This document shows positions 43,244-61,343 of a stretch of 64,000 bases of DNA, piece by piece. The stretch spans positions 124,001 through 188,000 of the forward strand of contig JAUSMV010000030.1 in the NCBI GenBank assembly GCA_030645235.1, read 5' to 3'. The notes below the pieces were generated by a model. That model worked only from the letters and a program-made list of their open reading frames with translations. It did no database searches and had not been told where the DNA came from. The stretch is from Parvibaculum sp. (lineage in GTDB: Bacteria; Pseudomonadota; Alphaproteobacteria; Parvibaculales; Parvibaculaceae). Every line of letters begins with the position of its first letter. The first letter of the stretch is position 1. A program made the translations under genes and the position numbers.

Positions 43244-44485
43244 ATGGCAGAAGCATTCATCATTGACGCCGTCCGCACACCGCGCGGCGTTGGCAAAGTC
43301 GGCAAGGGCGCACTCGCCCATCTTCACCCGCAGCACCTCGCCTCGACGGTTCTGAAGGCGCTGGCCGAACGCAACAAAGTCAACACAGCCGAAGTTGACG
43401 ACGTTATCTGGGGCACGTCCTCACAGCGCGGCGCACAGGGCGGCGACATGGGCCGCATGGCGGCCCTCGATGCCGGTTTCGACATCCGCGCCTCGGGCGT
43501 GACACTCGACCGTTTCTGCGGTTCGGGCATCACCACTGTCAGCCTTGCCACAGCGCAGATCATGTCCGGCATGGAAGATCTCATCATCGCAGGCGGCTGT
43601 GAAATGATGAGCTACACATCATCGACCGCCGATCCGAAGACACCGCCGATGATGGACGCCGGCAATCTGCATCTGCGCTCAATCCATCCGCAGTCGCAGC
43701 AAGGCGTTTGCGCCGACGCGATCGCGACACTCGAAGGCATTGACCGTGACGCCGTTGACCAGCTCGCGCTCGTCTCGCAGCAGCGCGCCGCGCAGGCCAT
43801 CAAAGAAAACCGTTTCGCCAAGTCGCTCATCACCGTGAAGAACCTCGACGGCACGGTCGCGCTTGACCACGAAGAATTCCCGCGCCCGTCGACAACGATC
43901 GAAGGTCTCGGCGCGTTGAAGCCGGTCTTCCCCGTGTTCATGAACATTCCCGTTGACGATCTGGGCAACACCTACGGCAACCTCATTCAGCGCGTCTATC
44001 CGCAACTGAAAGAGTTCAACCACATCCATCACGCCGGCAACTCATCGGGCGTTGTGGACGGTGCCGCCGCCATCCTGCTCGCCTCTGAATCCTACACGAA
44101 GAAGCACAACCTGAAACCGCGTGGACGCGTCGTTGCCACAGCGAATATGGGCGATTGCCCGACGCTGATGCTCAATGCCCCGGTGCCTGCAGCCCGCAAG
44201 GTTCTGGAAAAGGCCGGTCTCACGGTTGACGATATCGACCTGTGGGAAATCAACGAAGCCTTTGCCGTCGTCGCTGAAAAGTTCATCCGCGATCTGAAGC
44301 TCGACCGCTCGAAGGTCAACGTCAATGGCGGCGCGATGGCCCTTGGTCATCCGATCGGCGCCACGGGTTCGATCCTCATCGGCACGATCCTCGATGAACT
44401 CGAACGCACAGGCAAGAAGCGCGGCCTCGTGACCATGTGCGCCGCCGGCGGCATGGCCCCTGCCATCATCATCGAACGCCTCTAA
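43244..44485 (+). CDS. Acetyl-CoA C-acyltransferase (thiolase)
   Basis: A 413-residue thiolase. The nucleophile is Cys92 in LDRFCGSGITTVSLA, the general base histidine is in GGAMALGHPIGATGSI, and the second cysteine is in VTMCAAGGMAPAI near the C-terminus, so all three catalytic residues are present. It cleaves or forms acetoacetyl- or 3-ketoacyl-CoA. It has its own terminator and a 195-base leader, so it is probably transcribed alone. Confidence 0.95.
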   Translation: MAEAFIIDAVRTPRGVGKVGKGALAHLHPQHLASTVLKALAERNKVNTAEVDDVIWGTSSQRGAQGGDMGRMAALDAGFDIRASGVTLDRFCGSGITTVSLATAQIMSGMEDLIIAGGCEMMSYTSSTADPKTPPMMDAGNLHLRSIHPQSQQGVCADAIATLEGIDRDAVDQLALVSQQRAAQAIKENRFAKSLITVKNLDGTVALDHEEFPRPSTTIEGLGALKPVFPVFMNIPVDDLGNTYGNLIQRVYPQLKEFNHIHHAGNSSGVVDGAAAILLASESYTKKHNLKPRGRVVATANMGDCPTLMLNAPVPAARKVLEKAGLTVDDIDLWEINEAFAVVAEKFIRDLKLDRSKVNVNGGAMALGHPIGATGSILIGTILDELERTGKKRGLVTMCAAGGMAPAIIIERL

Positions 44486-44503
44486 GCGGTTCGATTGCAA
44501 TTC

Positions 44504-44536
44504 AGCCCGGCACCGGAAACGGTGCCGGGCTTTTTT
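44504..44536 (+). terminator. Intrinsic terminator of the thiolase gene
   Basis: AGCCCGGCACC and GGTGCCGGGCT form an eleven-base-pair hairpin around GGAAAC, followed by T residues. Confidence 0.94.
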
Positions 44537-44617
44537 GTTTGGGCGCTATCACTCGCACGCGCGCTCGGCTAGATTGGTTGCGTAGGCTTCGGGGCACGGG
44601 CTTCACTTGGAGGCAGA

Positions 44618-45283
44618 ATGAGCAACCGGACATTGAGCAATATCGACAGCGATGTGCTCTTGCGCGCCTATGCATTCGGCGTGTTCCCCATGGCGGAAGC
44701 GCGCGACGATCCGCAGCTTTACTGGATCGACCCGGAGCGGCGCGGGATTTTACCACTCGACAAATTTCACCTGCCCCGCCGGTTGAAACGCACGGTCAAA
44801 GCGGAACCTTTTGAGGTTCGCATCAACACAAGTTTTCGTCAGGTGATGCTGGGCTGCGCGGAGAGCGGCGCGGACCGCGAAGGCACGTGGATCAACGATC
44901 AGATCATGGAGCTTTACGGCGAACTCTTTGCGCGCGGGCATGCGCACTCGGTTGAGTGCTGGCAAAGCGGGCGGCTGGTGGGCGGGCTATACGGCGTGTC
45001 GCTTGGCGCGGCATTCTTTGGTGAGAGCATGTTCAGCCGCGAAACGGACGCGAGCAAAGTGGCGCTTGTCTATCTCGTCGCGCGGCTCATCTATGGCGGG
45101 TTCAAACTGCTCGACACGCAATTTGTGACGGCGCATCTCGGTCAATTTGGTACGACTGAAATTTCGCGCGACGCGTATCGCGTGCGTCTGCATGAAGCGA
45201 CGATGGAGAGTGCTGACTTTCGCAGGATGCCGGAAGATTACGGCTCGATAGCGGTGTTGCAGGTCTTGAGCCAGACGTCATAG
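44618..45283 (+). CDS. aat: Leucyl/phenylalanyl-tRNA--protein transferase
   Basis: A 221-residue enzyme that adds Leu or Phe to N-terminal Arg or Lys of proteins, tagging them for ClpAP (N-end rule). The sequence [35 protein letters not shown] is the family signature, followed by the acetyltransferase-like core [36 protein letters not shown] lies just before the ATG. Its 3' end overlaps the tail of the DUF2155 gene on the other strand by 46 bases. Confidence 0.96.
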
Positions 45284-45636
45284 ACGGGATGCTCAAGGCC
45301 GTTGAGGCCGGGGCTTTCGGCAAACATCCAGCCTTTGAAAATCGGTGCGGGGTCAACACTGTTGTCTTCTTCGTTGACCTGACGGATTTCAACATAGGCG
45401 GCGGTTTGCGGGGTCTCTTCCGGCGGGCGCATGTCGCAGGCGCGGACGGTCAGCTCCAAAGCGCCAAAGCGCGTGGGCTGATCTTTGTCCGCAACGAATT
45501 TTGAAACATTGGCTGTGATTTTATCAAGGCCACCGAAGACGGCTTGCGCATAAGGCGCAGCGTTGGCCGCGCTCGCGCTCATACAGAAAGCCGTAACGCA
45601 AAGAAGATGTTTGATTGTGATGCCGAATTTCATCAC
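45238..45636 (-). CDS. DUF2155 domain periplasmic protein
   Basis: A 132-residue protein with a signal peptide ending SAANAAPY and the DUF2155 core ([55 protein letters not shown]). Its ATG overlaps the stop of mlaD by four bases, so it is the third member of the NDUFA12-mlaD-DUF2155 unit that recurs next to aat in alphaproteobacteria. Function is unknown; a link to envelope lipid transport is suggested only by position. Confidence 0.9.
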
Positions 45637-46109
45637 GGGGCTTTGCCTTCGCTGTCTTCTTTTTTGCCGCCTGTTGTCGAGAACACGGCCTGACCGATCA
45701 GACTCATCAGATCGATGGAGCCTTGCGTGAAGCTGATCTCTCCACCTTCGGCAAGATAGGTCTCACTGCCGCCGGGTGTAAGCGCGATGTAGTTGGACCC
45801 AAGCAGGCCTTCGCTGGTGATTTTGGCGCTGCTGTCGTCAGGAATTTTGACGTCCGTGGCGAGGTTCATTTTCACGACGGCTTTGTAATTTGTCTGGTCG
45901 ATAGTCTGAGCGACAATGGTGCCGACCTTGATGCCGGAGAGGCGCACGTCACTGCCATTGGCGAGACCGTCAACGCGGTCGAACTCCGCCGTGACTTTGT
46001 AGCCGCTGGCGCTGCGCATGCCGGAATTTGAATAGCCATAAAACAGAAAGACACCGGCGACGATGACGACGATGGCGCCGATCAGCGTTTCGACGAAGTT
46101 GCTTTGCAT
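45633..46109 (-). CDS. mlaD: Outer membrane lipid asymmetry protein MlaD
   Basis: A 158-residue MCE-domain protein. Residues 8-27 (TLIGAIVVIVAGVFLFYGYS) anchor it in the inner membrane, and the periplasmic MCE domain follows (YKVTAEFDRVDGLANGSDVRLSGIKVGTI, SAKITSEGLLGSNYIALTPGG). MlaD is the hexameric periplasmic lipid carrier of the MlaFEDB complex that keeps phospholipids out of the outer leaflet. The other mla genes are not adjacent, as is usual in this group. Confidence 0.93.
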   Translation of the reverse strand: MQSNFVETLIGAIVVIVAGVFLFYGYSNSGMRSASGYKVTAEFDRVDGLANGSDVRLSGIKVGTIVAQTIDQTNYKAVVKMNLATDVKIPDDSSAKITSEGLLGSNYIALTPGGSETYLAEGGEISFTQGSIDLMSLIGQAVFSTTGGKKEDSEGKAP

Positions 46110-46169
46110 TGATATCCCCGGAGCGTCGGCGTTGAAGCGGTTAGAAAAATACGGCGGTTACGGCTTCGA

Positions 46170-46565
46170 TTATGGCTTCCAGGCCTCGTAGTCGCCGGTG
46201 GCTTTGGCGCGCGCACCGCTGCCCATGATGCTGCCCTTCGGATGATAGGCGCTCGATGTGCCGGTGGCGTTTTGCGTATGCGGAAGCTGCCATGGTTTGG
46301 CGATATAGTTTTCCTCCGTAGGCGGAGTAGGCACTGTGTTGTGGAGCCAGCCGTGCCATTCGGGCGGCACGCGCGAAGCGTCGGCATACCCATTGTAGAG
46401 CACCCAGCGGCGCGGATAGCCGGCGAGCTTTTCGCCCTTGGCGGATTCAAAGTAGCGGTTGCCCTGATCGTCGTTGCCGACAAATTTGCCGTACTTCCAT
46501 GTGTAGAAGCGCGTGCCCATTGTCTGGCCGTGCCACCAGATGAAAATTTCGGAGAAAAGGCTCAT
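46170..46565 (-). CDS. NADH:ubiquinone oxidoreductase subunit NDUFA12 (B17.2)
   Basis: A 131-residue accessory subunit of respiratory complex I found in alphaproteobacteria and mitochondria. The start MSLFSEIFIWWHGQTMGTRF at 46565 is preferred over an ATG eight codons upstream. The signature YGKFVGNDDQGNRYFE and RRWVLYNGYADASRVPPEWHGWLH are clear. It lies first in the unit with mlaD and the DUF2155 gene. It is a strong marker of alphaproteobacterial origin. Confidence 0.94.
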   Translation of the reverse strand: MSLFSEIFIWWHGQTMGTRFYTWKYGKFVGNDDQGNRYFESAKGEKLAGYPRRWVLYNGYADASRVPPEWHGWLHNTVPTPPTEENYIAKPWQLPHTQNATGTSSAYHPKGSIMGSGARAKATGDYEAWKP

Positions 46566-46691
46566 TGGACCACCGTTACCAAGCCTCAAAACGAGGCCAC
46601 AAATGCGATTCTATCACCCGCAGGAGAGGTGGGAATATGGCATTGCAGGAGGGGATGGTCCAGTGGCGGGCGTACCGAAATGGCGGAAAGA

Positions 46692-47222
46692 CTAGTCTAA
46701 CGACCATGTATCCGCGGCTTTTGAGGATCGTTCGGTCGAGAGTTTGGCCGCTTTGGGCAAACGCATTTCCTGACGGTAGATATCGCCGGCCTTTACGAAG
46801 GGACGATCATCTTCCAGCACCCATGAAATGCGCTGAAGGAGGTTCGCGGGCGTCACCGGTTTCACCAGAAGCTGGGTGGCGCCGGAGGCGAAGGCGGTCT
46901 CGATCAGGGGGCGCGAGGCATGGGCTGTGAGCACAATAATCGGCACAAAACATAGGGGTTCGCGGCCCACGCGGCGCACGGCGCGGATGAAATCCAAGCC
47001 GTTCATGGGGGCCATTTCCCAATCGGAGATGATCAGATCGGGAACCCGGCGCTCCAATTCGGCCAAAGCGGTGGTGCCGTCGCGGGCCTGGCGGGCATCC
47101 TGCATGCCGAAGCTGCGCAGAATCGTGCGGACCAGCAGGCGCATGTTGGCATTGTCATCGACGATCAAAATATCAAGATCTTTCAATGACTTGCCTAAAG
47201 CTGTGCTGGTCTGGTTCAACAT
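46692..47222 (-). CDS. Single-domain CheY-like response regulator
   Basis: A 176-residue protein with a receiver domain and a short C-terminal tail. ILIVDDN gives the acidic pocket, LIISDWEMAPMNG holds the phospho-acceptor Asp, VLTAHA the switch Thr, and LVKPV the conserved Lys. There is no DNA-binding or output domain; the 35-residue tail is basic. No kinase gene is adjacent, although an orphan kinase lies at 23578-24759. Its partner and role are unknown. Confidence 0.92.
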   Translation of the reverse strand: MLNQTSTALGKSLKDLDILIVDDNANMRLLVRTILRSFGMQDARQARDGTTALAELERRVPDLIISDWEMAPMNGLDFIRAVRRVGREPLCFVPIIVLTAHASRPLIETAFASGATQLLVKPVTPANLLQRISWVLEDDRPFVKAGDIYRQEMRLPKAAKLSTERSSKAADTWSLD

Positions 47223-47429
47223 ATTCTGAAAGGCTCCACCTCATCCGGAACGGCCATACTGCCCTTAAAACCGTTATTTTTTGGCTAATCCCCTAAATTT
47301 ATTCGGACTTTCGATGTCGATTCGCGCCTGCCTAGGCCCAAAAAGCCCGCCTAGATATGGCGTCTTTATTGAGTAAAACCACCATGGCTTGACAAGGCAG
47401 GGGTCGAGCGACGCAATGCTTCATTGAGT

Positions 47430-47475
47430 TTCTTGCAAGAGATCGAGTGTTTCCATGTCGAGATCGAGTGCGGAC
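47430..47475 (-). repeat. Dispersed 'METLDLLQE' repeat, copy C (short)
   Basis: The core ttcttgcaagagatcgagtg and its continuation match copies A and B. On the minus strand it reads HVSALDLDMETLDLLQETQ then stop. It lies in the leader of nrdJ, 30 bases before the ATG. Confidence 0.7.
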
Positions 47476-47505
47476 ACGTGAGCGAAAAAGAGAGCCGGGG
47501 GTCGG

Positions 47506-50500
47506 ATGCGTATTCAGCGTTGTTTCACGAGTGAGGGTCTGTCCCCGTATGAGGGTATCGCGTTCAAATCGACCCTGAGCGAGATCAAAAATCCCGACGG
47601 CTCAACCGTGGGTCGCGCTGTCGAATTGCTTGTCCCCGCAAACTGGTCGGGCGTCGCGGCCGATATCCTCGCCCAAAAATATTTCCGCCGCGCGGGCGTC
47701 GCTGCGGCGCTGAAAAAGATTCCGCAAAAAGATGTCCCCGCGTTTTTATGGGCGCATGAACCCGACCATGACGCGCTCGCGGCCCTGCCCCCGGAAGAGC
47801 GTTTCACCGGTGAGACGGATGCGCGGCAAGTTTTCGACCGCCTCGCGGGCACATGGACCTATTGGGGCTGGACCGGCGGCTATTTCGACACGGAAGCCGA
47901 CGCGCTGACCTATCGCGACGAGATGGCCTATATGCTGGCAGCCCAGATGGCGGCCCCCAACAGCCCGCAATGGTTCAACACGGGCCTCCACTGGGCCTAT
48001 GGCATTGACGGTCCCGCGCAGGGTCACTTCTATGTGGACCCCAAAAGCGGCGAGACGGTCGCGTCCACCAGCGCCTATGAACACCCGCAGCCGCATGCCT
48101 GCTTCATTCAGAGCGTCAACGACGACCTTGTGAATGAAAACGGCATCATGGACCTCTGGGTGCGTGAAGCGCGCCTCTTCAAATACGGTTCCGGCACGGG
48201 GTCCAATTTCTCGAACCTGCGCGGCGAGGACGAAGGGCTGACCGGCGGCGGGCAATCGTCCGGCCTGATGAGCTTCCTCAAAATCGGCGACCGCGCGGCG
48301 GGCGCAATCAAATCGGGCGGCACGACGCGGCGCGCGGCCAAGATGGTGATCGTGGACGCGGACCATCCCGATATTGAAGCCTTTATCAACTGGAAGGTGA
48401 TCGAAGAGCAGAAGGTGGCCGCCCTCGTCACCGGCTCGAAGATCAACCAGAAGCATCTTTCCGCGATCATGCGCGCCTGCGTCAATTGCGAAGGCTCGAA
48501 TGATGATTGCTTCGACCCGAAAAAGAACACGGCGCTGAAGCGCGAAATCATTGCCGCGCGCAAAATGCATGTGCCGGAAAACTATGTGCAGCGCGTGATC
48601 CAGTTTGCGCGTCAGGGCTATTCGGACATCAAGTTTGATACTTATGACACGGACTGGGACGGCGAGGCCTATCGCACTGTTTCAGGCCAGAACTCCAACA
48701 ACACGGTGCGCCTGACCGATGATTTCCTGCGCGCTGTTGAAAATGACGAGGACTGGGAGCTGATCCGCCGCACCGACGGCAAAGTGTCCAAAACGCTGAA
48801 GGCTACCGAACTCTGGGACCAGATCGGCCAGGCGGCATGGGCCTCGGCTGATCCGGGACTGCAATTCCACACCACGATCAATGACTGGCACACCTGCCCT
48901 GCTTCGGGCGACATCCGCGCCAGCAATCCGTGCTCGGAATATATGTTCCTTGACGATACGGCCTGCAATCTTGCCTCGCTGAACCTGATGACATTCCGCG
49001 AAGCTTCGACCGCGACCAGCAAAGGCGGACGCTTTGACGTTGAAGCCTTTGAACAGGCCGTGAAGCTCTGGACTGTGACGCTCGAAATCTCCGTGCTGAT
49101 GGCGCAGTTTCCGAGCCGCGCCATTGCCGAACGCTCATTCCGCTATCGCACGCTGGGACTTGGCTTTGCCAATATCGGCGGGCTTTTGATGGCGTCCGGT
49201 ATTCCCTATGACAGCGCCGAAGCGCGCAGCCTCTGCGCTGCGATCAGCGCCATTATGACAGGCGTGTCCTATGCGACCTCGGCTCAGATGGCCAAAGAGC
49301 TTGGTGCCTTCGCGGGCTTTGCGGACAATCGCGAGCATATGCTGCGCGTGATGCGCAATCATGCACGCGCCGCGCATGGCGACGCCACGGGCTATGAAGC
49401 GTTGAGCCTTGCACCTGTGCCGCTGGACGCGGCGAACTGCCCGCAGCGTGATCTCGTTGATCACGCGCGCGCCGCCTGGGACGTTGCTGTCGCTATGGGC
49501 GAGAAATACGGCTATCGCAATGCGCAGGCGAGCGTTGTTGCGCCGACCGGCACGATCGGCCTTGTAATGGATTGCGACACGACGGGCATTGAGCCTGATT
49601 TCGCGCTCGTCAAATTCAAGAAGCTTGCGGGCGGCGGCTATTTCAAAATCATCAATCGCGCTGTGCCGCAGGCGCTGCATGCACTCGGCTATTCGACGCG
49701 CGAAATCGAAGACATTATTGATTATGCCGTTGGTCTCGGCGCACTCGAACATGCGCCGGGCGTGAACCATGCGGCACTCGTCGCCAAGGGTTTCACCAAA
49801 GCGAAGATCGACGCGGTGGAAGCGGCGCTGGGCACGGCTTTCGACATTCGCTTCGTGTTCAACAAATGGACGCTGGGCGAAGATTTCTGCGTCGATGTGC
49901 TGAAGCTTGATGCCGACGCGATGGACGATCTTGATTTTGATTTGCTGGGGGCCATCGGCTTCAGCAAGCGCGACATTGATGCGGCGAACATTTACGTTTG
50001 CGGCGCGATGACGGTAGAAGGCGCACCGCATCTGAAAGACGCACATTTGGCCGTCTTCGATTGTGCCAATCCCTGCGGGCGCACGGGCAAACGCTTCCTG
50101 TCAGTTGAAAGCCATATCCGCATGATGGCGGCGTCGCAGCCTTTCATCTCCGGTGCGATTTCCAAGACGATCAATATGCCGAATGCGGCAAGCGTCGAAG
50201 ACTGCAAAGAAAGCTATATGCTGTCGTGGAAGCTCGCGCTGAAAGCCAATGCGCTTTACCGCGACGGCTCGAAACTGTCGCAGCCGCTTAATTCGCAAAT
50301 CCTTGAAGATGAAGTGTTTGACGAGGATGTGGCGGATGATGAATTGGTGGCGATGAGCGAGACGGTGGCCGAGCGGGTCGCTGCCCTGCCCCAGCCCGAA
50401 CGCGCAAAGCTCGTTGCCGAAAAATTTGTCGAGCGTCTTGTTGATCGCGCCAAGGACCGCCAGAAGCTGCCGGATCGCCGCAAGGGCTATACGCAGAAGG

Positions 50501-51240
50501 CGCTGGTGGGCGGGCACAAGGTTTACCTCCGCACGGGCGAATATGAAGACGGGACCATCGGCGAAATCTTCATCGACATGCACAAAGAAGGCGCGGCCTT
50601 CCGCTCACTGATGAATAATTTTGCCATCGCGATTTCGCTTGGCCTGCAATATGGCGTGCCGCTGGAAGAATATGTCGAGGCGTTCACGTTCACGCGGTTT
50701 GAGCCTGCCGGTATGGTGCAGGGCAATGACCGGATCAAGAACGCAACCTCGATCCTCGACTATGTGTTCCGCGAACTCGCTGTGTCTTATCTCGGCCGCG
50801 CGGATCTCGGCCATGTGGACCCCAAAGACATTGCCTTTGACGCGATGGGATCGGGCGCTGACGAAGGGAAACTCCCCGCCTCCAGCGTGGTGAGCCCCGG
50901 CTTCACGCGCAATGCGCAGATGGGCAATCTCTATATCGTGCGCGGCGGTGCGCTGCGCGCGGCGGTGGCCAGCTCATCGGCGACAAAGGCGATTTTGGAT
51001 GCGTCCGAACATGCCGAAGAGATGATCGTCAATTCGCAGACGTTACGCGATGAGGGCGCGATAAGCGGTGGCATCGGGAATGGTGGCGGGGGCACGCATG
51101 GCGGCTTCAACCGTTTGGCCGAAGCGCGCATGAAGGGCTATGAGGGCGAGGCCTGCAGCGAATGCGGGAATTTTACGATGGTCCGCAACGGGACTTGCCT
51201 CAAATGCGAGACATGCGGGGGCACGAGCGGGTGTAGTTGA
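47506..51240 (+). CDS. nrdJ: Vitamin B12-dependent (class II) ribonucleotide reductase
   Basis: A 1244-residue enzyme that reduces ribonucleotides with adenosylcobalamin and needs no oxygen or metal radical. The start [18 protein letters not shown] fits the family. [12 protein letters not shown] holds one redox cysteine, NPCSE at residues 474-478 contains the thiyl-radical cysteine and its Asn and Glu partners, and [16 protein letters not shown] is a substrate loop. The C-terminus [23 protein letters not shown] is the zinc-binding tail with the shuttle cysteines. The length is typical of alphaproteobacterial NrdJ. No cobalamin riboswitch or NrdR box was found upstream. Confidence 0.97.
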
Positions 51241-51271
51241 GGCATCCCCTCGGACAGTTTGAATACCTAGA

Positions 51272-51293
51272 TGGCCGGACTTGATCCGGCCAT
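51272..51293. repeat. Type-1 palindromic repeat after nrdJ
   Basis: GGCCGGA-CTTGA-TCCGGCC followed by ATTT lies 34 bases after the nrdJ stop and may end its transcript. Confidence 0.75.
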
Positions 51294-51488
51294 TTCGTTA
51301 TTTTGGAAAGCTATTGACCCTGTCGTACCCAAGATTTTACTTCTCTGCGCTCATCAGTTCTTATCGTCCGTACAAAAATGTTTGTTTGGCTATTAGAAGC
51401 CCACTTCATCCAATTCTTTAAATCTTTGCTTTGGCTACACACGGACTACAATGATTGGGGAATACACTAAACAACTGGGGGGACGGGA

Positions 51489-53084
51489 ATGGCAACTAAC
51501 GTAGTAAACTTAGACGCGCTTATTCCGCGTGAAGACTTTGCCGTAAGCGAAAAAGGCAACGACTTTAAACGAGGCGATACATTTCGTATTACCGATCTTC
51601 TGCCTGGCGCTTTCACTTATGCCGCGCTCCGAAAGCCCGACTTTCAACGGGAAACTGCAAATTGGTCACCTCAAAAAATTCAGGACTTTGTCCTTACATA
51701 TTTGTCAGGCGACCTAGTTCCGGCAATTATTTTGTGGGGAGCTGGAGGCCAAGTATTTGTGATTGATGGAGCCCATCGGCTGAGCGCATTAATTGCGTGG
51801 GTACATGATGACTACGGCGATGGAAAGTTGTCACGAGAATTCTTTAGCAACGACATTCCACCAGAACAGTTGAGAGCGGCAGAAAGAACTAGAAATTTAA
51901 TAAAAAAATCTATCGGCACGTATGTTGAGCATGACCTTGCTGCCAAGCCAAACAACAAAGCAAGCACTGAAGTTGCCGAACGCGCACAACGCCTATCCAG
52001 CCTCGCACTGCAATTACAATGGGTCCCATCTACCGACTCCAAAAGAGCAGAGGCTTCATTTTTCAGAATCAACCAAGCATTTACTGAAATCGACCCAACT
52101 GAGTTGCGCATCCTCAGTGCACGAACTCAGCCTAATGCGGTTGCGGCTAGGGCGATTGTTCGAAACGCGACCGGGCACAAATATTGGTCGGCATTCCCGG
52201 AAGAGGTACAAGTCGAAATAGAAGATGTGGCGAAAGATATTTATTCAACTCTATTTACTCCCCCACTAGATACACCAATCAAAACAATGGACGTTCCGGT
52301 AGCAGGTAGAGGGTATAGCGCATACACACTTCCATTGATGTTTGAGCTTGTGAATCTCGCGAACAACATCCCCATTATCGACGCGTCTAAGAAACGAAGA
52401 AAGGGCGATGAGGACACGAGAGAATTACCCGATGATGGGACAAAAACGCTCCAATTTTTAAAAAACACTCGTAGACTCGTATACCGAATTAGTGGCACTC
52501 AACCATCGTCACTGGGGTTACATCCGCTTGTGTACTTCTACAGTCTAACTGGTCGTTATCAACCGACCGCATTTCTAGCCGGCGCGGCTTTCATACGTGA
52601 TCTAGATGAGAAGAAGAAGTTTTCTGATTTTACTAGTGTCAGAAGCCAATTTGAAGATTTTTTTATCAAGCACAAAAACTTCAACAACCAGATCGTTCTT
52701 AAATTTGGGAGTATGGCCAAAGGATATGGACACATAAAAGATCTTTACACGTTTGTTATGACCTCCCTACTTGAACGAAAGACCGAGGGAGAAATAGTTT
52801 CTCTCTTAAAAAATGACACCCGATTTAATTATCTTTTGACGGTAAATCCCGAGAGCGTCACCAACGCCAAAGAAGGTGCTGCCTTTAGCAAGGACACAAA
52901 ATCTGCGGCATACCTTCGCGAAGCGCTCGGCAATCCCCCAGTAAAGTGTAATGTCTGCGGCGGCTTCATGCACAAGAATTCAATTCACATCGATCACGAA
53001 AAACGAAAACGTGATGGAGGGAGTAACGCCTTAAACAATGCCAAATTGGCGCATCCATATTGCGATAGCACGGAAAAGAATTAG
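51489..53084 (+). CDS. DUF262 (GmrSD-like/ParB-fold) protein with C-terminal HNH nuclease domain
   Basis: A 531-residue protein of two recognised ends. Residues about 33-105 are a DUF262-type domain (PDFQRE at 50-55; VIDGAHRLSAL at 91-101, close to the DGQQR motif). The C-terminal 45 residues are an HNH nuclease: CNVC at 487-490, HIDH at 500-503, an Asn pair near 516, His522 and Cys525. The middle (residues 110-480) is helical and unassigned. The gene is much richer in A+T than its neighbours and uses codons such as AAA and TTA freely, so it was probably acquired. DUF262 with an HNH domain recalls type IV (GmrSD) restriction. It stands alone, with repeats on both sides. Confidence 0.75.
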   Translation: MATNVVNLDALIPREDFAVSEKGNDFKRGDTFRITDLLPGAFTYAALRKPDFQRETANWSPQKIQDFVLTYLSGDLVPAIILWGAGGQVFVIDGAHRLSALIAWVHDDYGDGKLSREFFSNDIPPEQLRAAERTRNLIKKSIGTYVEHDLAAKPNNKASTEVAERAQRLSSLALQLQWVPSTDSKRAEASFFRINQAFTEIDPTELRILSARTQPNAVAARAIVRNATGHKYWSAFPEEVQVEIEDVAKDIYSTLFTPPLDTPIKTMDVPVAGRGYSAYTLPLMFELVNLANNIPIIDASKKRRKGDEDTRELPDDGTKTLQFLKNTRRLVYRISGTQPSSLGLHPLVYFYSLTGRYQPTAFLAGAAFIRDLDEKKKFSDFTSVRSQFEDFFIKHKNFNNQIVLKFGSMAKGYGHIKDLYTFVMTSLLERKTEGEIVSLLKNDTRFNYLLTVNPESVTNAKEGAAFSKDTKSAAYLREALGNPPVKCNVCGGFMHKNSIHIDHEKRKRDGGSNALNNAKLAHPYCDSTEKN

Positions 53085-53151
53085 ACCAGCTTGTAATAAA
53101 AATTGAGATTAACCAAGCAAGACTAATTCGAAAATCGACAAGAACGATAAA

Positions 53152-53332
53152 GTGGATACGGGGATCGAGCCCGCGCATGACAGAAGTAAGTGAAGAAAGA
53201 CCCTCACCCACCCCTCTCCCAGAGGGAGAGGACTAAGAAAGACGTGGATACGCGGGTCAAGCCAGCGCATGACGGAAGTAAGGGGAGAAAGACCCTCACC
53301 CAACCCTCTCCCAGAGGGAGAGGACTAAGAAG
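53152..53332. repeat. Tandem pair of a combined type-1/type-2 repeat unit
   Basis: A unit of about 90 bases (type-1 element then CCCTCACCC...CCTCTCCCAGAGGGAGAGG) occurs at 53152-53240 and again at 53244-53332, with about ten substitutions. Two similar units directly repeated suggest local duplication. There is no gene in 53085-53908. Confidence 0.8.
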
Positions 53333-53399
53333 CCTGATTAAGTCGGGCGAAGGCGGTGTGTTATTGATCATTGTGAGGAAGGGCAGCAGGTGCGGCGTT

Positions 53400-53560
53400 T
53401 GTGGCTTACCCCCCTCCCTCCGCGCATAAGAATGCGCTCCGCCCTCCCCCTCAAGGGGGGAGGGGAAAGTAAGGAAGACCCTCACCCGTCGTCGGGCAAT
53501 TGATCCACCGGATCAATTGCTATTCCTCCTCCGCCTCTCCCAGAGGGAGAGGACTAAGAA
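53400..53560. repeat. Two type-2 composite repeats with different cassettes
   Basis: One holds the hairpin GCGCAT-AAGA-ATGCGC (near 53421-53436), then the CTCCCCCTCAAGGGGGGAG palindrome. The next holds cassette alpha, GCAATTGATCC (53496-53506) pairing with GGATCAATTGC (53510-53520), and ends CCTCTCCCAGAGGGAGAGG. Confidence 0.8.
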
Positions 53561-53589
53561 ACCAAGCATTCAACTTCTACAGCGGTTGA

Positions 53590-53890
53590 GGCAAAGATGG
53601 ATCGCCCGATCAAGTCGGGCGAAGGCGGTTTTTTGGAGGTTGGTCCATTTGTTCGTCATAGCGAGCGGAGCGGCACCATACATCTTTCTTTGCCGGGGTA
53701 GACCGGGTTGCCGCGTCGGCCAAGGGGCCTCCTCGCAATGACGGAAGTATATGATGGGTACGGAGGGTGTGGCTCACCCCCCTCCCGATCAGCTTCGCTG
53801 ATCTGCCTCCCCCTCAAGGGGGGAGGAGAAGATAAGAAAGTCGCGCTCTCAATTTCCATTCCGTCTCCACCCTTAAGGGGAAGAGAAAAA
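53590..53890. repeat. Further diverged palindromic repeats
   Basis: This stretch contains GCCCGA-tcaag-TCGGGC near 53599, a degenerate type-1 unit near 53693-53748, and a type-2 element whose cassette is GATCAGC-TTC-GCTGATC (near 53784-53800) before CTCCCCCTCAAGGGGGGAG. It runs almost to the sulfotransferase stop. Confidence 0.7.
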
Positions 53891-53908
53891 GCCCGTCTGC
53901 TGTCTCAC

Positions 53909-54535
53909 TTATTTTGTCAGGTGGGCGCCGAATTCTTCGCGTGAATTGGTGCGGGGGAAGTCGGCGGCGGGGACCGGCACGTTCATGAATTTACTCAAAG
54001 GTTCCCAGCCTTCGCTGACCTCATAGACGAGGAGGCGTTCCGGCGGGATCGTCCGTTTCACGGTTGCGATGTGATCATTATAAACTTTGAGAATATGGGC
54101 TTTGTCCAGATTGCCGGAAAACGTCTTTTCACGGACGATAAGGCCTGCCATTTCACCGACTGCCATCAGGGCCGGATCGACGACGCCTTTGGGTGCGGAG
54201 CCGGTGATGACCTTCATGATCGTGTCGGCAAAACTCGAAAACCATTTTTCCGGATCGCGGACGGTGAGCAGGACTTTCGCATCGGGAAAGCGCAAGGCGA
54301 GTTCGCGCCAGAAATGGCAGCTCGGCCAATCAATCGTCGCGGTGTAACCCGTCAGTAGTTTTTCCCAGTCAACGGGTTCGCCACGAGCCGCTGCCGTCCA
54401 AGTGGGCGCCTGCTTCGGGTTGCCGAAGACTTCGATCATGTGGTGACACGGGCCGAGACCCAGCGTTTCCAATGCCGCTTTGAGCGACAGAGTGCCGGTG
54501 CGGCCAAAGCCGGCACCGATGAGTTTGAGCGACAT
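53909..54535 (-). CDS. Sulfotransferase family protein
   Basis: A 208-residue protein with the PAPS-binding P-loop GAGFGRTGTLSLKAALETLG at the N-terminus and the second motif in VLLTVRDPEKWFSSFADTI. These are the two nucleotide-binding signatures of the P-loop sulfotransferases of the 'sulfotransferase_4' type. The start at 54535 puts the P-loop at residues 7-20; the frame is open 59 codons further upstream, but that part has no family match. The acceptor substrate is unknown. Confidence 0.85.
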   Translation of the reverse strand: MSLKLIGAGFGRTGTLSLKAALETLGLGPCHHMIEVFGNPKQAPTWTAAARGEPVDWEKLLTGYTATIDWPSCHFWRELALRFPDAKVLLTVRDPEKWFSSFADTIMKVITGSAPKGVVDPALMAVGEMAGLIVREKTFSGNLDKAHILKVYNDHIATVKRTIPPERLLVYEVSEGWEPLSKFMNVPVPAADFPRTNSREEFGAHLTK

Positions 54536-54820
54536 GGTTCCCCCCAGAAATGCGCACCGTTCCTGACATATGTAGGGGTATTCCTTGTCATTGTACCAAC
54601 AATTTCGAGTCTTATTCACTTTCGCAAATTGTTCAGTGCCAGAATTTTTTTGCACTGCGCAATGAATGCATTTCCCATGTAAAGCGGGTTTTAACTGTGT
54701 GAAATTTGTCATCCCTGAAATGAAAGTTCCAATCTAGCCGAATGACTTATTGACCACACACAGGAGCAACCGACAGGATTGTACGTCGACTGATTATTGT
54801 TTAGTACCTGGGGGGAAACT

Positions 54821-55444
54821 ATGAACACAACAAAATTACTTCTCGCAACTGCGATGGTTTGCGCTTTGTCAGCGCCTGCTTATGCAGATGAAGCGACGTC
54901 GGGGAACGTCTATGCGAGCCTGTCCGGTGGCGTGATTGCGCCGGAAGATATTGACGTGACAGCCGGCCCGACCGTGACGTTTTCGTTCGATACCGGTTAC
55001 ACCGTGTCGGGCGCGATCGGCACATGGGTCTCGGACAATGTGACGGTTGAAGGCGAACTCACCTATCTGTCGGCTGATTTCGACGAAGGTGAAACATTGG
55101 GCGTGGCCGTGCCGGTCGAAGGCGATTTTGCTTCGACACTTTTGCTCGCCAATGCTGCCTATCATTTCGGCGGCAAGAATGCCTCGTTCGATCCTTATCT
55201 CGGCGCGGGCGTGGGCATCGCGGATAGCGATCTTGAAGTCACGTCCATCGGTGGCGTTCCGACCAATATCGAAGATTCAGCGACCGATTTTGCGACGCAA
55301 GTCTCGGCCGGTCTCAATCTGAACCTCACATCGGGCGTGTCGGTGGGGGCGGAATACCGCTTCCTCTATATCGATTCCGGCGGAGATGACTCGGATGGCT
55401 TTTCGGGTCACAACCTGACGGCCAATGTAACGCTGGCTTTCTGA
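54821..55444 (+). CDS. Outer membrane beta-barrel protein
   Basis: A 207-residue protein with a signal peptide (NTTKLLLATAMVCALSAPAYA) followed by alternating strands (GNVYASLSGGVIAPED, GYTVSGAIGTWVSDNVTVEGELTYLSADF) and a terminal aromatic residue (LTANVTLAF). This matches small porin-like or OmpA-barrel-like proteins with eight strands. It is preceded by GGGGGG and a 285-base gene-free leader and is followed by a terminator, so it is expressed alone. Function is unknown; a structural or adhesin-like surface role is likely. Confidence 0.85.
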   Translation: MNTTKLLLATAMVCALSAPAYADEATSGNVYASLSGGVIAPEDIDVTAGPTVTFSFDTGYTVSGAIGTWVSDNVTVEGELTYLSADFDEGETLGVAVPVEGDFASTLLLANAAYHFGGKNASFDPYLGAGVGIADSDLEVTSIGGVPTNIEDSATDFATQVSAGLNLNLTSGVSVGAEYRFLYIDSGGDDSDGFSGHNLTANVTLAF

Positions 55445-55475
55445 GTTCAGGCGTTTTCGACTTTTCGGCATTTGG

Positions 55476-55502
55476 GGGGAGCGCTGCGGCGCTCCCCTTT
55501 TT
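55476..55502 (+). terminator. Intrinsic terminator of the beta-barrel gene
   Basis: GGGGAGCGC-TGCG-GCGCTCCCC followed by five T residues, 30 bases after the stop. Confidence 0.93.
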
Positions 55503-55589
55503 GCGTCTGCGGCCTCTTTACCGTCGCAATTCGGACCAAATGGCGGGTTAATATGCTTCAAACTTCATGTTTGAGACAGGTGATCTGAA

Positions 55590-56132
55590 ATGAAAATGAA
55601 AACGGCGATATTTGCATTGGCCGCGACGCTTTATGCGACGGGCGCGATGGCGGCGGGCAATCTCTATGAGACACTGAAGAGCGATCCGCAATTTTCGACG
55701 CTGGTGTCAATCATTGATGCGACCGGCACACGCCACAATTACACGAGCGGGACGCGCACGGTTTTCGCGCCGACCAATGCGGCCTTTGACACCGTCAAGG
55801 GCGGCTATCAGGACATGCTGAGCGGGGCGGACCGCACCAATACGCAGGCCCTGCTGCTCTATCAGATCGTGCCGGGTGTCCATACGCCGGAGAGCTTCAA
55901 GGGCAAGACCGTGACGCTCAACACGCTGCAGAAGGACCCTGTGACCATCTATGGCACGGGCGAGAAGCTGCATTTCGGTGATGCTTATGGTGCCGATCAA
56001 TCGGGCGAAGCGCTGACCGCATCAAACGGTGTGATCATTCCGGTGGACAATGTGCCGGTGCCGGTTTTTGACACGGCGGATGACGGCGTGCCGGTGCCTG
56101 CGCCTGTGATGACGCGGACGCCACTTAACTAA
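55590..56132 (+). CDS. Secreted fasciclin-domain protein
   Basis: A 180-residue protein with a signal peptide ending in GAMAAGNLY and one FAS1 domain. The H1 box is visible as RTVFAPTNAAFDTV, and the second box as LLLYQIVPGVHTPESFKGKTVTLNTL. The C-terminal NGVIIPVDNVPVPV closes the domain, and a short proline-rich end follows. Bacterial FAS1 proteins are extracellular or periplasmic and act in adhesion; a partner is not evident. It is convergent with a PACE-like gene 16 bases away. Confidence 0.88.
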   Translation: MKMKTAIFALAATLYATGAMAAGNLYETLKSDPQFSTLVSIIDATGTRHNYTSGTRTVFAPTNAAFDTVKGGYQDMLSGADRTNTQALLLYQIVPGVHTPESFKGKTVTLNTLQKDPVTIYGTGEKLHFGDAYGADQSGEALTASNGVIIPVDNVPVPVFDTADDGVPVPAPVMTRTPLN

Positions 56133-56148
56133 GTGACGGGTCGCTTTT

Positions 56149-56571
56149 TCAAGTGACAGGTCTCAGGCGGTCATACACCAGATAGAAAACATAGGTGTAG
56201 ACCGCGAAGATGAAGCTGAACCCTATGTCGGCGAGCAAGGCAATCCAGAAGGGCTTGCCGCTCATCGCCAGGATGATCGGCACGGCAAGGAAGGTCACCG
56301 TCACCTCATAAAGGATCGTGTGGAGAAGGCGCAGGCGATGCGTCTTCTCATGCGCGAGGAGGCCTGTGCGGGCATACATCGCGCGGTCGAAGATCATATT
56401 GTAGATATAGATCCAGATGATGACCGCGATGGAGATCATCAGCATGGTGGCGAAGGAATTGTCCATCGGCAGATCGAGCGCGTAGGAATAGACCGGCGTC
56501 AGAAACACCAGCGCGATGACCTCATAGAGAACGGCCTGAAACAGCCGCTCTCCCCTGCTTCGCTCTTTCAT
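56149..56571 (-). CDS. PACE-type (bacterial transmembrane pair) membrane protein
   Basis: A protein of about 140 residues with four membrane segments in two related halves: ERLFQAVLYEVIALVFLTPVYSY, IAVIIWIYIYNMIFDRA, LLHTILYEVTVTFLAVPIILAM, and IGFSFIFAVYTYVFYLVYDRL. The repeated YE and W/Y-x-Y-N-x-x-F-D pattern is the mark of the PACE (chlorhexidine efflux) family. Upstream in-frame codons at 56583 and 56598 are alternatives. It lies immediately after aspS, 27 bases from its stop, and is perhaps cotranscribed. Whether it exports a biocide or another compound is unknown. Confidence 0.82.
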   Translation of the reverse strand: MKERSRGERLFQAVLYEVIALVFLTPVYSYALDLPMDNSFATMLMISIAVIIWIYIYNMIFDRAMYARTGLLAHEKTHRLRLLHTILYEVTVTFLAVPIILAMSGKPFWIALLADIGFSFIFAVYTYVFYLVYDRLRPVT

Positions 56572-56598
56572 GCCCGCGGGCATTCCCTCAGGTGACAA

Positions 56599-58398
56599 TC
56601 AGGCCTTCTTCTCAAGTGGCGGCACAACGCGGATGTGCAACTCCTTGAGTTGTTTGGCTTCAACCTGCGAGGGTGCCTGCATCAGCAAGTCCTGCGCCTG
56701 CTGGTTCATCGGGAACATCGTGACTTCACGTAAATTCTCAACACCGGCGAGCAACATCACCATGCGGTCGATGCCCGGTGCGAGACCACCATGCGGCGGG
56801 GCGCCGAACTTGAACGCATTGAGCATGCCGCCGAATTTTTCCTCGACGACCGAGGCCGCATAGCCCGCAATTTCAAAGGCCTTGTACATGATCTCAGGCT
56901 TGTGATTACGGATCGCGCCTGAGGACAATTCGATGCCGTTGCAGACGATGTCATATTGATAGGCGTTGATGGTCAGCGGGTCCTGATTGTTCAGCGCGTC
57001 CAGGCCGCCCTGCGGCATGGAGAAGGGATTGTGTGAGAAATCAACGCGCTTCTCGTCTTCGTTATACTCAAACATCGGGAAATCGACGATCCAGCAGAAT
57101 TTGAAGATGCCCTCTTCGATGAGGTTCAGGTCCTTGCCGATGCGGGTGCGGGCGAGACCGGCGAAGGAGGCGAAGTTTTTCGGGAGGCCCGCAACGAAGA
57201 AGACAGCGTCGCCGTCTTTCAGGCCCAGCTCGGTGCGGATCTGTTCGGTGCGTTCGGGGCCGATGTTTTTGGCCAAGGGCCCCGCGCCTTCGAGCACGCC
57301 GTTTTCGCTGCGCCAGAAGATGTAGCCGAGGCCCGGCTGACCTTCGCCCTGCGCCCATGAATTCATACGGTCGCAGAATGTGCGGCTGCCGCCGCCGGGG
57401 GCGGGGATCGCCCAGACTTCGACCTTAGGGTCTTTTTCGATCATGCCCGCAAAGACCTTGAAGCCGGAGCCTGCGAAAATATGCGTGGCGTTGGACATTT
57501 CGATCGGGTTGCGGAGATCCGGCTTGTCATTGCCGTATTTGCGCATGCTGTCAGCGTAGGCGATGCGCGGGAACGGATAGGACGAGACTGTGCGGCCGTT
57601 GGCGAATTCTTCAAAGAGGCCGTGGAGCACGGGCTCAATCGCTGCAAACACATCGTCCTGATCGACAAAGCTCATCTCGACGTCGAGCTGGTAGAATTCG
57701 CCGGGCGAACGATCAGCGCGCGCGTCTTCATCGCGGAAGCACGGCGCGACCTGAAAATATTTATCGAAGCCCGCGACCATGATGAGCTGTTTGAACTGCT
57801 GGGGTGCCTGCGGCAGGGCATAGAACTTGCCGGGATGGACGCGCGAGGGCACGAGGAAGTCGCGGGCGCCTTCGGGCGATGAGGCGGTCAGGATCGGCGT
57901 CTGAAATTCGTTGAAGCCGGCATCTGTCATGCGACGACGCGCGGCGGCGATGATCTTGGAGCGCAGCAGAATGTTTTTGTGCAGCGTCTCGCGGCGCAGA
58001 TCGAGGAAGCGGTAGGTCAGGCGGGTTTCTTCGGGATAGTCCGGCTCGCCGAACACGGGCAGCGGCAGATCCTGCGCTTCGGACAGGACTTCAAGGCTCT
58101 CAACCGCGATTTCGATTTCGCCGGTGGCGAGATTCGGGTTCGTCGTGCCATCGGCGCGGGCGACGACCTTGCCATCGACTTTGATCACATATTCAGACCG
58201 CACCTTTTCAGCATGGCCGAAAGCCACCGCGCGGTCGGGGTCGAACACCAATTGCGTCAGGCCCGCATTGTCACGCAGGTCGATGAAAAGCAACCCGCCG
58301 TGATCGCGTTTGCGATGGACCCAGCCCGACAGGCGGACGGTTTCACCGATATTGGCTTTTGTCAGGGCGCCACAGGTGTGACTGCGATAGAGGTTCAT
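56599..58398 (-). CDS. aspS: Aspartyl-tRNA synthetase
   Basis: A 599-residue class II synthetase. The N-terminal OB domain begins [20 protein letters not shown] and has [17 protein letters not shown]. Motif 2 ([24 protein letters not shown]) and motif 3 ([20 protein letters not shown]) are intact. It contains the bacterial GAD insertion domain (about residues 300-420). Histidine or tyrosine position changes relevant to AspRS-ND discrimination were not examined. The upstream frame is open to 58497, but the ATG at 58398 matches the family. It is divergent from rnd. Confidence 0.97.
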
Positions 58399-58663
58399 GC
58401 TGTAAGGCCTTGAGGTGCAAGGAAGAATCTCCGCGACGCAGGGTTGCCCCGCGCACGAAACCGCTGGGAAGGTGCATCGAAGAACGGAACTTGTCAAAGC
58501 CTGTTCATTGCCCTGTCCATCTCCTTATCCGCAACGGGAAAAAAATACAAAAAATCACCGTTAAACTTACATTTTCCGCCGAATCTTTCTCTTATAGGCG
58601 CACGGGCTGAAGTGGCCATCTTGTTGAGACAGACGCGCAGAGATCGGTTATAGAACCCGCAGC

Positions 58664-59821
58664 ATGATTATCGTCACCACAACCGCCGAGCTTGAAACCG
58701 TCTGTGCGCGCCTGTCCGGCGTGGGCTTTATCACGGTTGATACCGAGTTCATGCGCGACTCGACCTTCTGGTCGAAACTCTGCCTCATTCAGATGGCCGG
58801 TCCGAATGACGAGATCGTCATCGACCCGTTGGCCCCGGGCATCGACCTCACCTCTTTCTATGATCTGATGCGCAACAAAAAGGTCGTGAAGGTTTTTCAC
58901 GCCGCGCGGCAAGACATTGAAATTTTCTGGCATGACGCGCAGACAATCCCCGACCCGTTATTTGATACGCAGGTGGCCGCGATGGTCTGCGGCTTCGGCG
59001 ACAGTGCGGGCTATGAAACGCTGGTGAACCGGCTGACCAACGGCACAGTCGATAAGTCGTCACGCTTTACCGACTGGGCAAGGCGGCCTCTGTCAGAAAA
59101 GCAAATGCAATATGCGATCGGCGACGTGACGCATTTGCGCAAAATCTATGAAGTGCTCGCCAAACGTCTGACGCAGGAAGGCCGCGCGCGCTGGGTCGCT
59201 GAAGAAATGGCAATCCTGCAAGACCCTGAGATTTACGAAGTGCGCCCCGAAGATGCCTGGAAGCGGCTGAAGACGCGCTTCAAGGGCCGCAAGGGTTTGG
59301 CTGTTCTCGTCGAAGTGGCTGCATGGCGCGAGCGGCAGGCGCAAGAGCGCAACCAACCGCGCTCGCGTATTTTAAAAGATGATGCGCTCGCTGAAATCGC
59401 CACGCAAATCCCGCGCGGGGCGGCCGATCTCGATCAGTTGCGCGCTGTGCCCAAGGGCATGTCGAATAGCCGCATGGCTGTGAGCCTGATGGAAGCGATT
59501 GAGCGCGGCATTAACATGCCTGACGATCAAATTCCCGTGATCGAACATTCAGAGCCGCTGCCGCCCGGCATCGGACCTCTCGTTGAATTGCTGAAAGTGC
59601 TGCTCTCCATGCGTTGCGAGCAACATGAAGTAGCGCAGAAGCTCATTGCCAAGGTCTCGGACCTTGAGCAGATTGCCGCTTATGATGAAGCCGATGTGCC
59701 TGCGCTGACCGGATGGCGGCGTGAAGTGTTCGGCAATGACGCGTTGCGATTGAAACGCGGCGAACTGGCGCTGGGTGCCAAGGGGCGGAAGATCATTTTG
59801 ATCGAGAGCGCGCCGAAGTAG
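58664..59821 (+). CDS. rnd: Ribonuclease D
   Basis: A 385-residue 3'-5' exoribonuclease that trims tRNA precursors. The DEDDy sites are [25 protein letters not shown] and [19 protein letters not shown]-type helical domain follows ([24 protein letters not shown]). The length matches E. coli RNase D. The gene lies between divergent aspS and convergent ppx, an order common in alphaproteobacteria. Confidence 0.96.
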
Positions 59822-59843
59822 GACTTCACCTCCTTCACCTAAA

Positions 59844-61343
59844 CTACTTCCCAACGCGCGTTTCGCCTTTGCGGTTCAAGGCGCGGGCGAGTGCTGTCAG
59901 GCGTTTTTGGACGACTTCACCAAGCAGAGGTTCGTAGCGGCGGGGCACGGTGAGCGACACAGTGGCTGCGTCAATTTCCAGTTTGGTTTTTGGCAACATG
60001 CCCGGTGTGGCTGCGCAGAGCGTGAAGGCAAGCCGGAGCGTTAACCCCAAGATCAATGCACGGAAGTTTTCCTCGTCACTGAGGAGACCTGAAAGAGAAC
60101 CGATGAGTTCCGGTTCTCCCCTGCCCTCGTGGCGGTGAAAAAGTGTGCGTGCGAGAAGCAACCGGCTCGGATGGTCGATGCCTGCGAATGGTGCCAACAG
60201 GATTTGCGTCATGGATTGATGCGCGCGGTAGTCGGGATGCACGTACCAGCCGATGTCGGCCAAGATACAAGCCGCGTGACGCAGGCGGGCCTGCGCGGGG
60301 GTTTCGCCCAACAGACCAGGCACAAAGAGAGGTGCGGTCCATGGCAGGAGTTCCGACCCGTGCTGCGGAAATCGCGCGAGGCGCTCGGCCAGATCGCGCG
60401 CACCTTCAATCAACGGGTCTTTCAACTGCTCGCGTTTGTCGAGGTGATCGAACAGGATGCCTTCGCGCAGACCGTAAGCCGAAATCACAATATCTTTCGC
60501 GCGCATTGCTTCGATGAGCTTTTCGAGGATCAGCGCGCCGATGGGCAGCGCCTCAATGCGGCGTTCGGAAATCTCCGGAATCTGCGAGAGCGATTTGGGG
60601 CCGAGGCGCTCAATAACTTTAGCAAGATCGGTCGCATCTTTGGCGGGGATCACATATTCGTGCAGGACGTGGATAGGGTAATTGCGTTGCGCCATGTGGA
60701 TGCGCGCGAGATTGCGCCAGACGCCGCCGACGACATAGAGGCGCTTGCCCTGAAATTCCTTGAAGATGTCGAGGCCTTTGAAGGCTTTGTCAACAATGGC
60801 TGTGGCATCGCTGAGCGAGCCTTTTGCCATGTCCATGATGCGCAAAGGGCCGACAGGCAGCGTGACGCCTTCGCCGAGGCGGCGACCGCCACTGACACCG
60901 ACAAGCTCCAGGCTCGCACCGCCGAGATCGCCCACGACACCGTCGGCATCGGGGATACCGGAGAGCACGCCTTGCGCGGAAAGGCGGGCCTCTTCGGCAC
61001 CGGAGACGAGCGTGATTTTGAAGCCGCAGATTTCTTCGGCACGGAGCAGAAACTCCGGTCCGTCTTCGGCATCACGCACGGCGGCGGTGGCGGCAATAAC
61101 AAGATGGTCGATACCAATTTGCTCACGCAGCGCGATGAAGCGTTGGAGGGCCGAGAGAGCACGCTCAATACCCTTGGGGTCAAGGCGGCCTGTGCTCGCG
61201 AGCGAGCGACCAAGGCCGCAAAGGATTTTTTCGTTGAAGACGAGGACAGGGCTGCGCGCGGCGGAAGCATAGACGACGAGGCGCACGGAATTGGAGCCCA
61301 GATCGACAATGCCGAACCGGCCACCGGACTTGGCGGCGCTCAC
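59844..61343 (-). CDS. ppx: Exopolyphosphatase
   Basis: A 499-residue Ppx/GppA-family phosphatase that removes phosphate from the ends of polyphosphate. The ASKHA-fold loops GIVDLGSNSVRLVVYA and GDLGGASLELVGVSGG are clear, and the catalytic region continues through VSGAEEARLSAQGVLSG. The C-terminal helical part resembles the HD-like domain of Ppx (CILADIGWYVHPDYRAHQSM). It lies 91 bases downstream of ppk on the same strand, so synthesis and breakdown of polyphosphate are encoded in one unit. Confidence 0.94.
   Translation of the reverse strand: MSAAKSGGRFGIVDLGSNSVRLVVYASAARSPVLVFNEKILCGLGRSLASTGRLDPKGIERALSALQRFIALREQIGIDHLVIAATAAVRDAEDGPEFLLRAEEICGFKITLVSGAEEARLSAQGVLSGIPDADGVVGDLGGASLELVGVSGGRRLGEGVTLPVGPLRIMDMAKGSLSDATAIVDKAFKGLDIFKEFQGKRLYVVGGVWRNLARIHMAQRNYPIHVLHEYVIPAKDATDLAKVIERLGPKSLSQIPEISERRIEALPIGALILEKLIEAMRAKDIVISAYGLREGILFDHLDKREQLKDPLIEGARDLAERLARFPQHGSELLPWTAPLFVPGLLGETPAQARLRHAACILADIGWYVHPDYRAHQSMTQILLAPFAGIDHPSRLLLARTLFHRHEGRGEPELIGSLSGLLSDEENFRALILGLTLRLAFTLCAATPGMLPKTKLEIDAATVSLTVPRRYEPLLGEVVQKRLTALARALNRKGETRVGK

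Follow-up and report, generated by a model that had tools for sequence, protein, structure and literature searches.

The window, by which we mean the whole 64,000-nucleotide stretch of Parvibaculum sp. DNA that was analysed, carries behind nrdJ a gene whose product joins an N-terminal DUF262 domain to a C-terminal HNH domain. The features of this locus, in window positions, are:

51241-51488, no strand: AT-rich intergenic stretch from nrdJ to the DUF262-HNH gene, with a terminator-like hairpin at 51269-51295
51489-53084, forward strand: lone DUF262-HNH gene, an open reading frame of 531 amino acids from ATG, matched by phrog_29172 (PHROGs) over residues 3-530
51627-52109, forward strand: GmrSD_N/DUF262 (ParB/Srx-like) domain, residues 47-207 (Pfam PF03235), with helices and strands mixed in the model
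51762-51779, forward strand: codons 92-97 (IDGAHR), aligned where GmrSD, BrxU and SspE have the NTPase motif DGQQR (motif from PMC4619093, PMC9646914)
52110-52946, forward strand: middle region (residues 208-486), made up of helices and loops, without a Pfam match or a significant PDB fold match
52947-53078, forward strand: HNH domain, residues 487-530 (Pfam PF01844), with C487, C490, D502, H503, N517, H522, C525 and D526
53152-53331, no strand: dispersed repeat, two 92-bp tandem copies, judged unrelated to the gene

The list of open reading frames and the translation place the boundaries exactly at 51489-53084 on the forward strand, with 531 codons and an ATG start, and this is a real protein-coding gene. 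The initial annotation had described it as a lone DUF262-HNH gene, which is borne out: Pfam finds both domains above their gathering cut-offs, GmrSD_N (DUF262) at residues 47-207 (E 1.6e-9, 38.7 bits against 33.2) and HNH PF01844 at residues 487-530 (E 6.5e-5, 23.4 bits against 21.4), and the motifs it named are present in the translation (PDFQRE, residues 50-55; VIDGAHRLSAL, 91-101; CNVC, 487-490; HIDH, 500-503; Cys 525). Besides these two domains, Pfam gives no match at E 1, DUF1524 (PF07510) included. The stretch free of Pfam matches, put at 370 residues in that annotation, proves to be shorter (residues 208-486, 279 amino acids). The match to phrog_29172 extends over residues 3-530 (E 2e-117). 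Two E. coli proteins that NCBI names 'GmrSD restriction endonuclease domain-containing protein' (WP_000146940 and WP_021293132) belong to the same family over the full length and are 36% identical to the window protein; PHROGs assigns the family no function. Matches in other collections are weak: NCBIfam returns IscB for the HNH part (E 0.0027), and PADLOC returns NsnA over residues 49-207, the DUF262 part (E 8e-5), and one further match at E 0.006. Around the gene, 51200-53300 contains three terminator-like sites (2.2 on average in shuffled sequences) and three promoter-like sites (2.9 in shuffles, no excess), and no RNA family reaches its gathering score in 44000-60000.

In the AlphaFold2 model, made with 34 family sequences and confident overall (pLDDT 89.2, pTM 0.88), the N-terminal part mixes alpha and beta elements, the middle consists of helices and loops, and the C-terminal end has two strands and a helix. 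The middle modelled alone (residues 203-466) is again built of helices and loops (pLDDT 87), and its fold has 42 matches in the PDB up to E 10, none of them significant (best E 0.93). For the whole protein, the top Foldseek matches in the PDB are BrxU (7p9k, E 0.069) and SspE (6jiv, E 0.14), followed by ParB, none of which reaches E 0.001; an HNH protein (4h9d) is matched with probability 0.98 at E 0.94. A viral structure library gives four matches with E values no higher than 0.001; two are named GmrSD N-terminal domain protein. The sequence profile, in its HNH part, weakly matches 6me0, 8d2k, 9lgi and 4h9d (E 0.006-0.25) in the PDB.

Full-length relatives, 35-55% identical to the window protein, are found in several phyla, in phages and on plasmids. 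The family match is beyond chance, because the alignment of the window protein with 23 relatives contains 54 invariant columns, which are distributed across the two domains. At E 0.01, DUF262 is found in 23 of 24 members and the PF01844 HNH in 19. The genome contig scan yields 15 loci (best-segment identity 42-55%), by title from Bradyrhizobium, Sphingomonas, Sphingobium, six actinomycetes, a planctomycete, a desulfobacterium, an acidobacterium and a verrucomicrobium. Two viral contig scans yield 4 and 21 loci, the 4 recurring among the 21, and the phage collection has the family in Pf8 and KL3, with two records each. Sixty plasmid records match, 54 of which are from Acinetobacter; in eight of the 60, at least 80% of the query is covered (six with 35-48% identity and two, from Acinetobacter, with 23%). 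With one E. coli-type relative as query, blastn detects it in 53 genomes among 5,426 from E. coli (13 full-length hits at 99% or more and 40 partial ones at 60-80%), and the proteins of E. coli ATCC 8739, SK1144 and A10 match the family profile over their full length. In a tree drawn without considering support values, the window protein groups with two Bradyrhizobium loci and one viral contig. The relative on a Pantoea plasmid (L026:7986-9569) is split into two annotated ORFs and lies among metabolic genes.

Residue counts refer to two alignments. The 24-row alignment (A1) omits L017 (same place as L003), the split Pantoea relative L026 and the distant L027 and L028. The 34-row alignment (A2) omits L017 and L029 (as L003), L030, L035 and L037 (repeats of L018-L020), L042 and L043 (match values equal to those of L041), L021-L028 and L050-L053; the fragments L047-L049 are included in A2 and excluded from a third alignment, A3.

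DGQQR, which is similar to the DGQHR found in DndB-like domains, is present in nearly 100% of GmrSD sequences, and the domains of these proteins are frequently joined by a helical linker of 200-400 residues (PMC4619093). The window protein has the N-terminal DUF262 and the helical linker (residues 208-486) of these enzymes but lacks both DGQQR and DUF1524. D93, G94, H96 and R97 are invariant in all 34 rows of A2, and residue 95 is Ala (26 rows), Gly (6), Ser (1) or Val (1). The family motif is therefore DG[A/G/S/V]HR rather than DGQQR, and the pocket that it would form has more in common with the DndB-like DGQHR. Because this invariant motif differs from DGQQR, NTPase activity of the family is not assured.

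At the C-terminal end, C487, C490, H503, N517, H522 and C525 are kept in all 29 rows of A2 that have a letter there, so that the CxxC zinc knuckle and the catalytic His and Asn of PF01844 are present throughout these rows. We take C487, C490, H522 and C525 to be the zinc ligands, H503 the general base, and N517 together with residue 526 the remaining HNH residues. Residue 502 is Asp in 23, Gly in 6 and Asn in 1 of 30 rows, and residue 526 is Asn in 27 and Asp in 2 of 29. The window protein has Asp at 526, where Asn is usual; with this one deviation, alignment and model support the metal and catalytic residues of the complete HNH that had been claimed. The substitution might mark a decayed or inactive relic, as might the isolation of a low-GC gene that has no homologues in the genus. 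However, the frame of 531 codons is intact and the other catalytic residues are in place, and we regard a relic as very unlikely. In seven of the 24 A1 rows (L011, L012, L014, L015, L018, L019 and L023), Gly replaces the Asp that precedes the catalytic His, a change that may affect how these relatives bind metal. The E. coli A10 copy (L102:8857-10428, outside A2) has Pro at the place of H522; the near-identical ATCC 8739 copy keeps the His.

The initial annotation also presented the gene as acquired, on the grounds of its base composition and a neighbouring repeat array. The composition is clearly deviant: with a GC content of 0.453 and a GC3 of 0.427, the gene is the most AT-rich of 50 window ORFs (150 amino acids or more, picked greedily by length), which average 0.579 with the gene included (sd 0.032) and of which the next lowest stands at 0.538. 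The AT-rich tract spans about 51300 to 53200. Family members elsewhere lie 0.04-0.19 below their flanks in GC at all 19 loci measured (L002-L016 and L022-L025). No match at E 1e-8 occurs in any of 26 congeners or in any of 34 further relatives; 18 of the congeners have a completeness of at least 90% and a contamination of no more than 5%. A profile search of the class finds the family in four of 385 genomes, the source genome included. The end of nrdJ is matched in 21 congeners, and the stretches behind it from 16 of them contain the gene in no case; a fasciclin-like gene (15/16) and aspS (14/16) follow downstream in conserved order. In the 15 congener intervals examined, nrdJ and the fasciclin-like gene are 0.7 to 5 kb apart (L085, L087 and L089 were closed at an OMP gene instead). 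Thus, horizontal acquisition is supported by the composition, the absence of matches in 26 congeners, the patchy occurrence across phyla and the presence on phages, plasmids and integrating elements.

The repeats contribute nothing to this. What had been called a dense repeat array comprises two 92-bp tandem copies (53152-53331) and related copies of a genome-wide repeat. Palindromic copies occur within 53152-53860; the 20-mer at their core is found 15 times without mismatch, three times here and 12 times elsewhere in the genome. Since the repeats are dispersed genome-wide, they are uninformative on acquisition and were rejected as its mark.

ARAGORN finds no tRNA in the 64-kb window. Directly behind nrdJ, three of the 15 congener intervals carry an AT-rich ORF of another kind (L086:867-1430, L090 and L095), and on this account the spot may be a recurrent insertion site. 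These three ORFs have no Pfam match and, between them, one PADLOC match (E 0.005). Other DUF262 proteins exist in the genus: PF03235 is matched in 12 of the 26 congeners, and 11 of these exceed the cut-off; in the source genome, the only PF03235 match is the gene itself.

The neighbours of the relatives were counted among 78 cellular proteins (16 loci, from 153 ORFs) and 98 viral proteins (15 loci, from 201 ORFs), hand-picked by size and distance; the counts are raw, and the family results are the best 25 of 90, of 93 and of 220 families. Among the matches listed for the cellular set are integrase (3), C5 methylase (2), Vsr (2) and Eco29kI-type endonuclease (2), and among those listed for the viral set are portal, terminase and integrase families. 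AbiEi and an integrase lie near L002, and a DUF4062-AAA gene lies just upstream of the relative in L014. In phage KL3, the relative is immediately preceded by an EcoRII methylase, Vsr and the EcoRII endonuclease. A Burkholderia glumae plasmid has genes for a DncV-like nucleotidyltransferase, ThiF and Mov34 near its relative, a group that we read as a type II CBASS set. In E. coli A10 and in ATCC 8739, a widely used laboratory strain, the relative is flanked by two TPP riboswitch features and adjoins a tyrosine recombinase; in SK1144, it lies between a VgrG-family gene and ogr, behind the tail genes of a prophage that we read as P2-like; and on an Enterobacter plasmid, Tn3 and IS26 transposases are nearby. 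The record of a Microvirga plasmid that carries a relative is unannotated. The distant Acinetobacter relative L028 has an integrase and WYL/DUF1819 genes in its vicinity, the latter presumably associated with BREX. The homologue and neighbour search that had been proposed as a check thus finds relatives on mobile elements, some of them near defence genes. Among close relatives, no copy in a housekeeping context was found, as the 26 congeners lack the gene. A role in phage defence is therefore partly supported, by this context and by analogy with GmrSD, BrxU, SspE and DndI; against it, at L004, L005, L012 and L013 the ORFs read as housekeeping genes, with no mobile or defence gene among them.

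In the filamentous phage Pf8, the relative (L021:8523-10061) lies at one end of the circular record and a tRNA at the other. Its annotation there, 'putative repressor C protein', is probably misleading. Taken at its word, it would make the family a phage regulatory protein, and ParB-like domains can indeed act in gene control; but Pfam gives the window protein no DNA-binding regulator domain and the HNH residues are conserved, and we consider this reading extremely improbable. Carriage by phages, prophages and viral contigs also fits a nuclease of inter-element competition or mobility, with which phages and plasmids would exclude rivals or aid their own spread in a homing-like manner rather than protect the cell. 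The weak matches of the HNH to IscB (NCBIfam, E 0.0027) and of the sequence profile to the maturase 6me0 (E 0.0058) point in the same direction. However, such a role leaves the DUF262 sensor unexplained, and the ORF list of 44000-60000 shows no integrase next to the gene. Defence does not preclude competition, and a role in competition or mobility instead of protection appears unlikely.

Among known enzymes, the Type IV restriction enzymes GmrSD and BrxU combine, like the window protein, an N-terminal DUF262, a helical middle and a C-terminal His-Me finger nuclease in one chain; enzymes of the GmrSD family cleave modified phage DNA and are stimulated by NTP. The window protein differs from them in the lack of DUF1524, in DGAHR for DGQQR and in an HNH of the CxxC...HxxC pattern, and BrxU, its top PDB match, stays below significance. 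The HNH had been held to be of a type different from that of GmrSD, which is true at the Pfam level (PF01844). However, the architecture is not new: single-gene proteins with DUF262 and HNH have already been described as GmrSD variants (PMC12373910). That source describes 12 single-gene groups from enterobacteria with ParB_n and HNH or DUF1524, and the ParB_n and HNH variants, likened here by their description, share the one-gene ParB_n/DUF262 and HNH layout of the window protein. When representatives of 15 groups (12 single-gene and three two-gene) were challenged with T-even phages, five proved active in addition to the known three (PMC12373910). DUF262 and HNH domains are also named in a figure legend on prophage clusters (PMC11341870), and DUF262 occurs in Menshen, Dazbog and PD-T4-2 (PMC10952713). 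In PADLOC, NsnA and PD-T4-2_A match 24 and 16 of 24 family members at E 0.01, with best E values of only 2e-9 and 7e-6. A PADLOC match to CARF9 in the middle region, present in one of 24 members (E 0.0057), was taken as chance. The literature search found no paper tied by name to the subfamily of the window protein.

It is fairly likely that the window protein is a one-protein, GmrSD-like defence nuclease regulated by NTP. It most likely works like a GmrSD enzyme although it lacks the two formal marks, DGQQR and DUF1524, and the horizontally acquired gene is probably functional as a one-gene nuclease. The N-terminal DUF262 would bind, and probably hydrolyse, nucleotide via the DGAHR pocket and sense target DNA. 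The helical middle would pass the signal to the C-terminal HNH, which would nick or cut the DNA and so restrict phages or plasmids. The gene seems to need no partner. If active, it would represent a compact, apparently partner-free defence enzyme found on a filamentous phage, P2-like phages and prophages, plasmids and integrating elements, and in several phyla; the family would then test whether the near-universal DGQQR of GmrSD enzymes is replaceable, and what the trigger is.

That trigger may be a DNA modification. Cytosine-5 methylase genes lie near three relatives, at 1.9 kb in KL3, 0.9 kb in L009 and 3.3 kb in L016 (the last distance read from the ORFs), and in the source genome PF00145 matches at two places on the contig of the window. 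A nuclease fired by any 5mC would attack hosts with such C5 methylases, which makes cytosine-5 methylation in general an improbable trigger. A more specific proposal, to which we give a low probability, is that these one-gene nucleases form a separate and widely mobile family. Its DUF262 sensor, with a DGxHR pocket and coupled to an IscB-like zinc HNH, would read a DNA mark or structure that GmrSD, SspE and BrxU enzymes are not known to read, and would spare cytosine-5 methylation.

A phosphorothioate-sensing effector like SspE or DndI, acting together with genes for DNA sulfur modification at another genomic location, would show the same domain order, DUF262 followed by an HNH-type nuclease (PMC9646914, PMC11662687). 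The source assembly does contain DndC (627 bits), which is found in none of the 26 congeners, and a phosphorothioate partner looked promising on this basis. However, the nickases SspE and DndI have DGQQR and a DUF1524 nuclease (PMC9646914, PMC11662687) and are partnered with ssp or dnd genes; the window protein has neither the motif nor the domain. Moreover, none of 18 genomes holding a family member, drafts among them, matches DndC at E 0.001. The contig with the dnd genes (C76) may itself be foreign, as an ORF read as a PEP-CTERM-like protein suggests (assembly contamination 3.31%). Because DndC is missing from these member genomes and lies on a doubtful contig in the source assembly, phosphorothioate is an unlikely trigger on sequence grounds, and an effector of the SspE or DndI kind is highly improbable. 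The dnd-like cluster on C76 (a 24-kb contig, locus L110) has DndC by profile, with neighbours that by eye resemble DndB, DndD, an SMC-like protein and a PLD-helicase.
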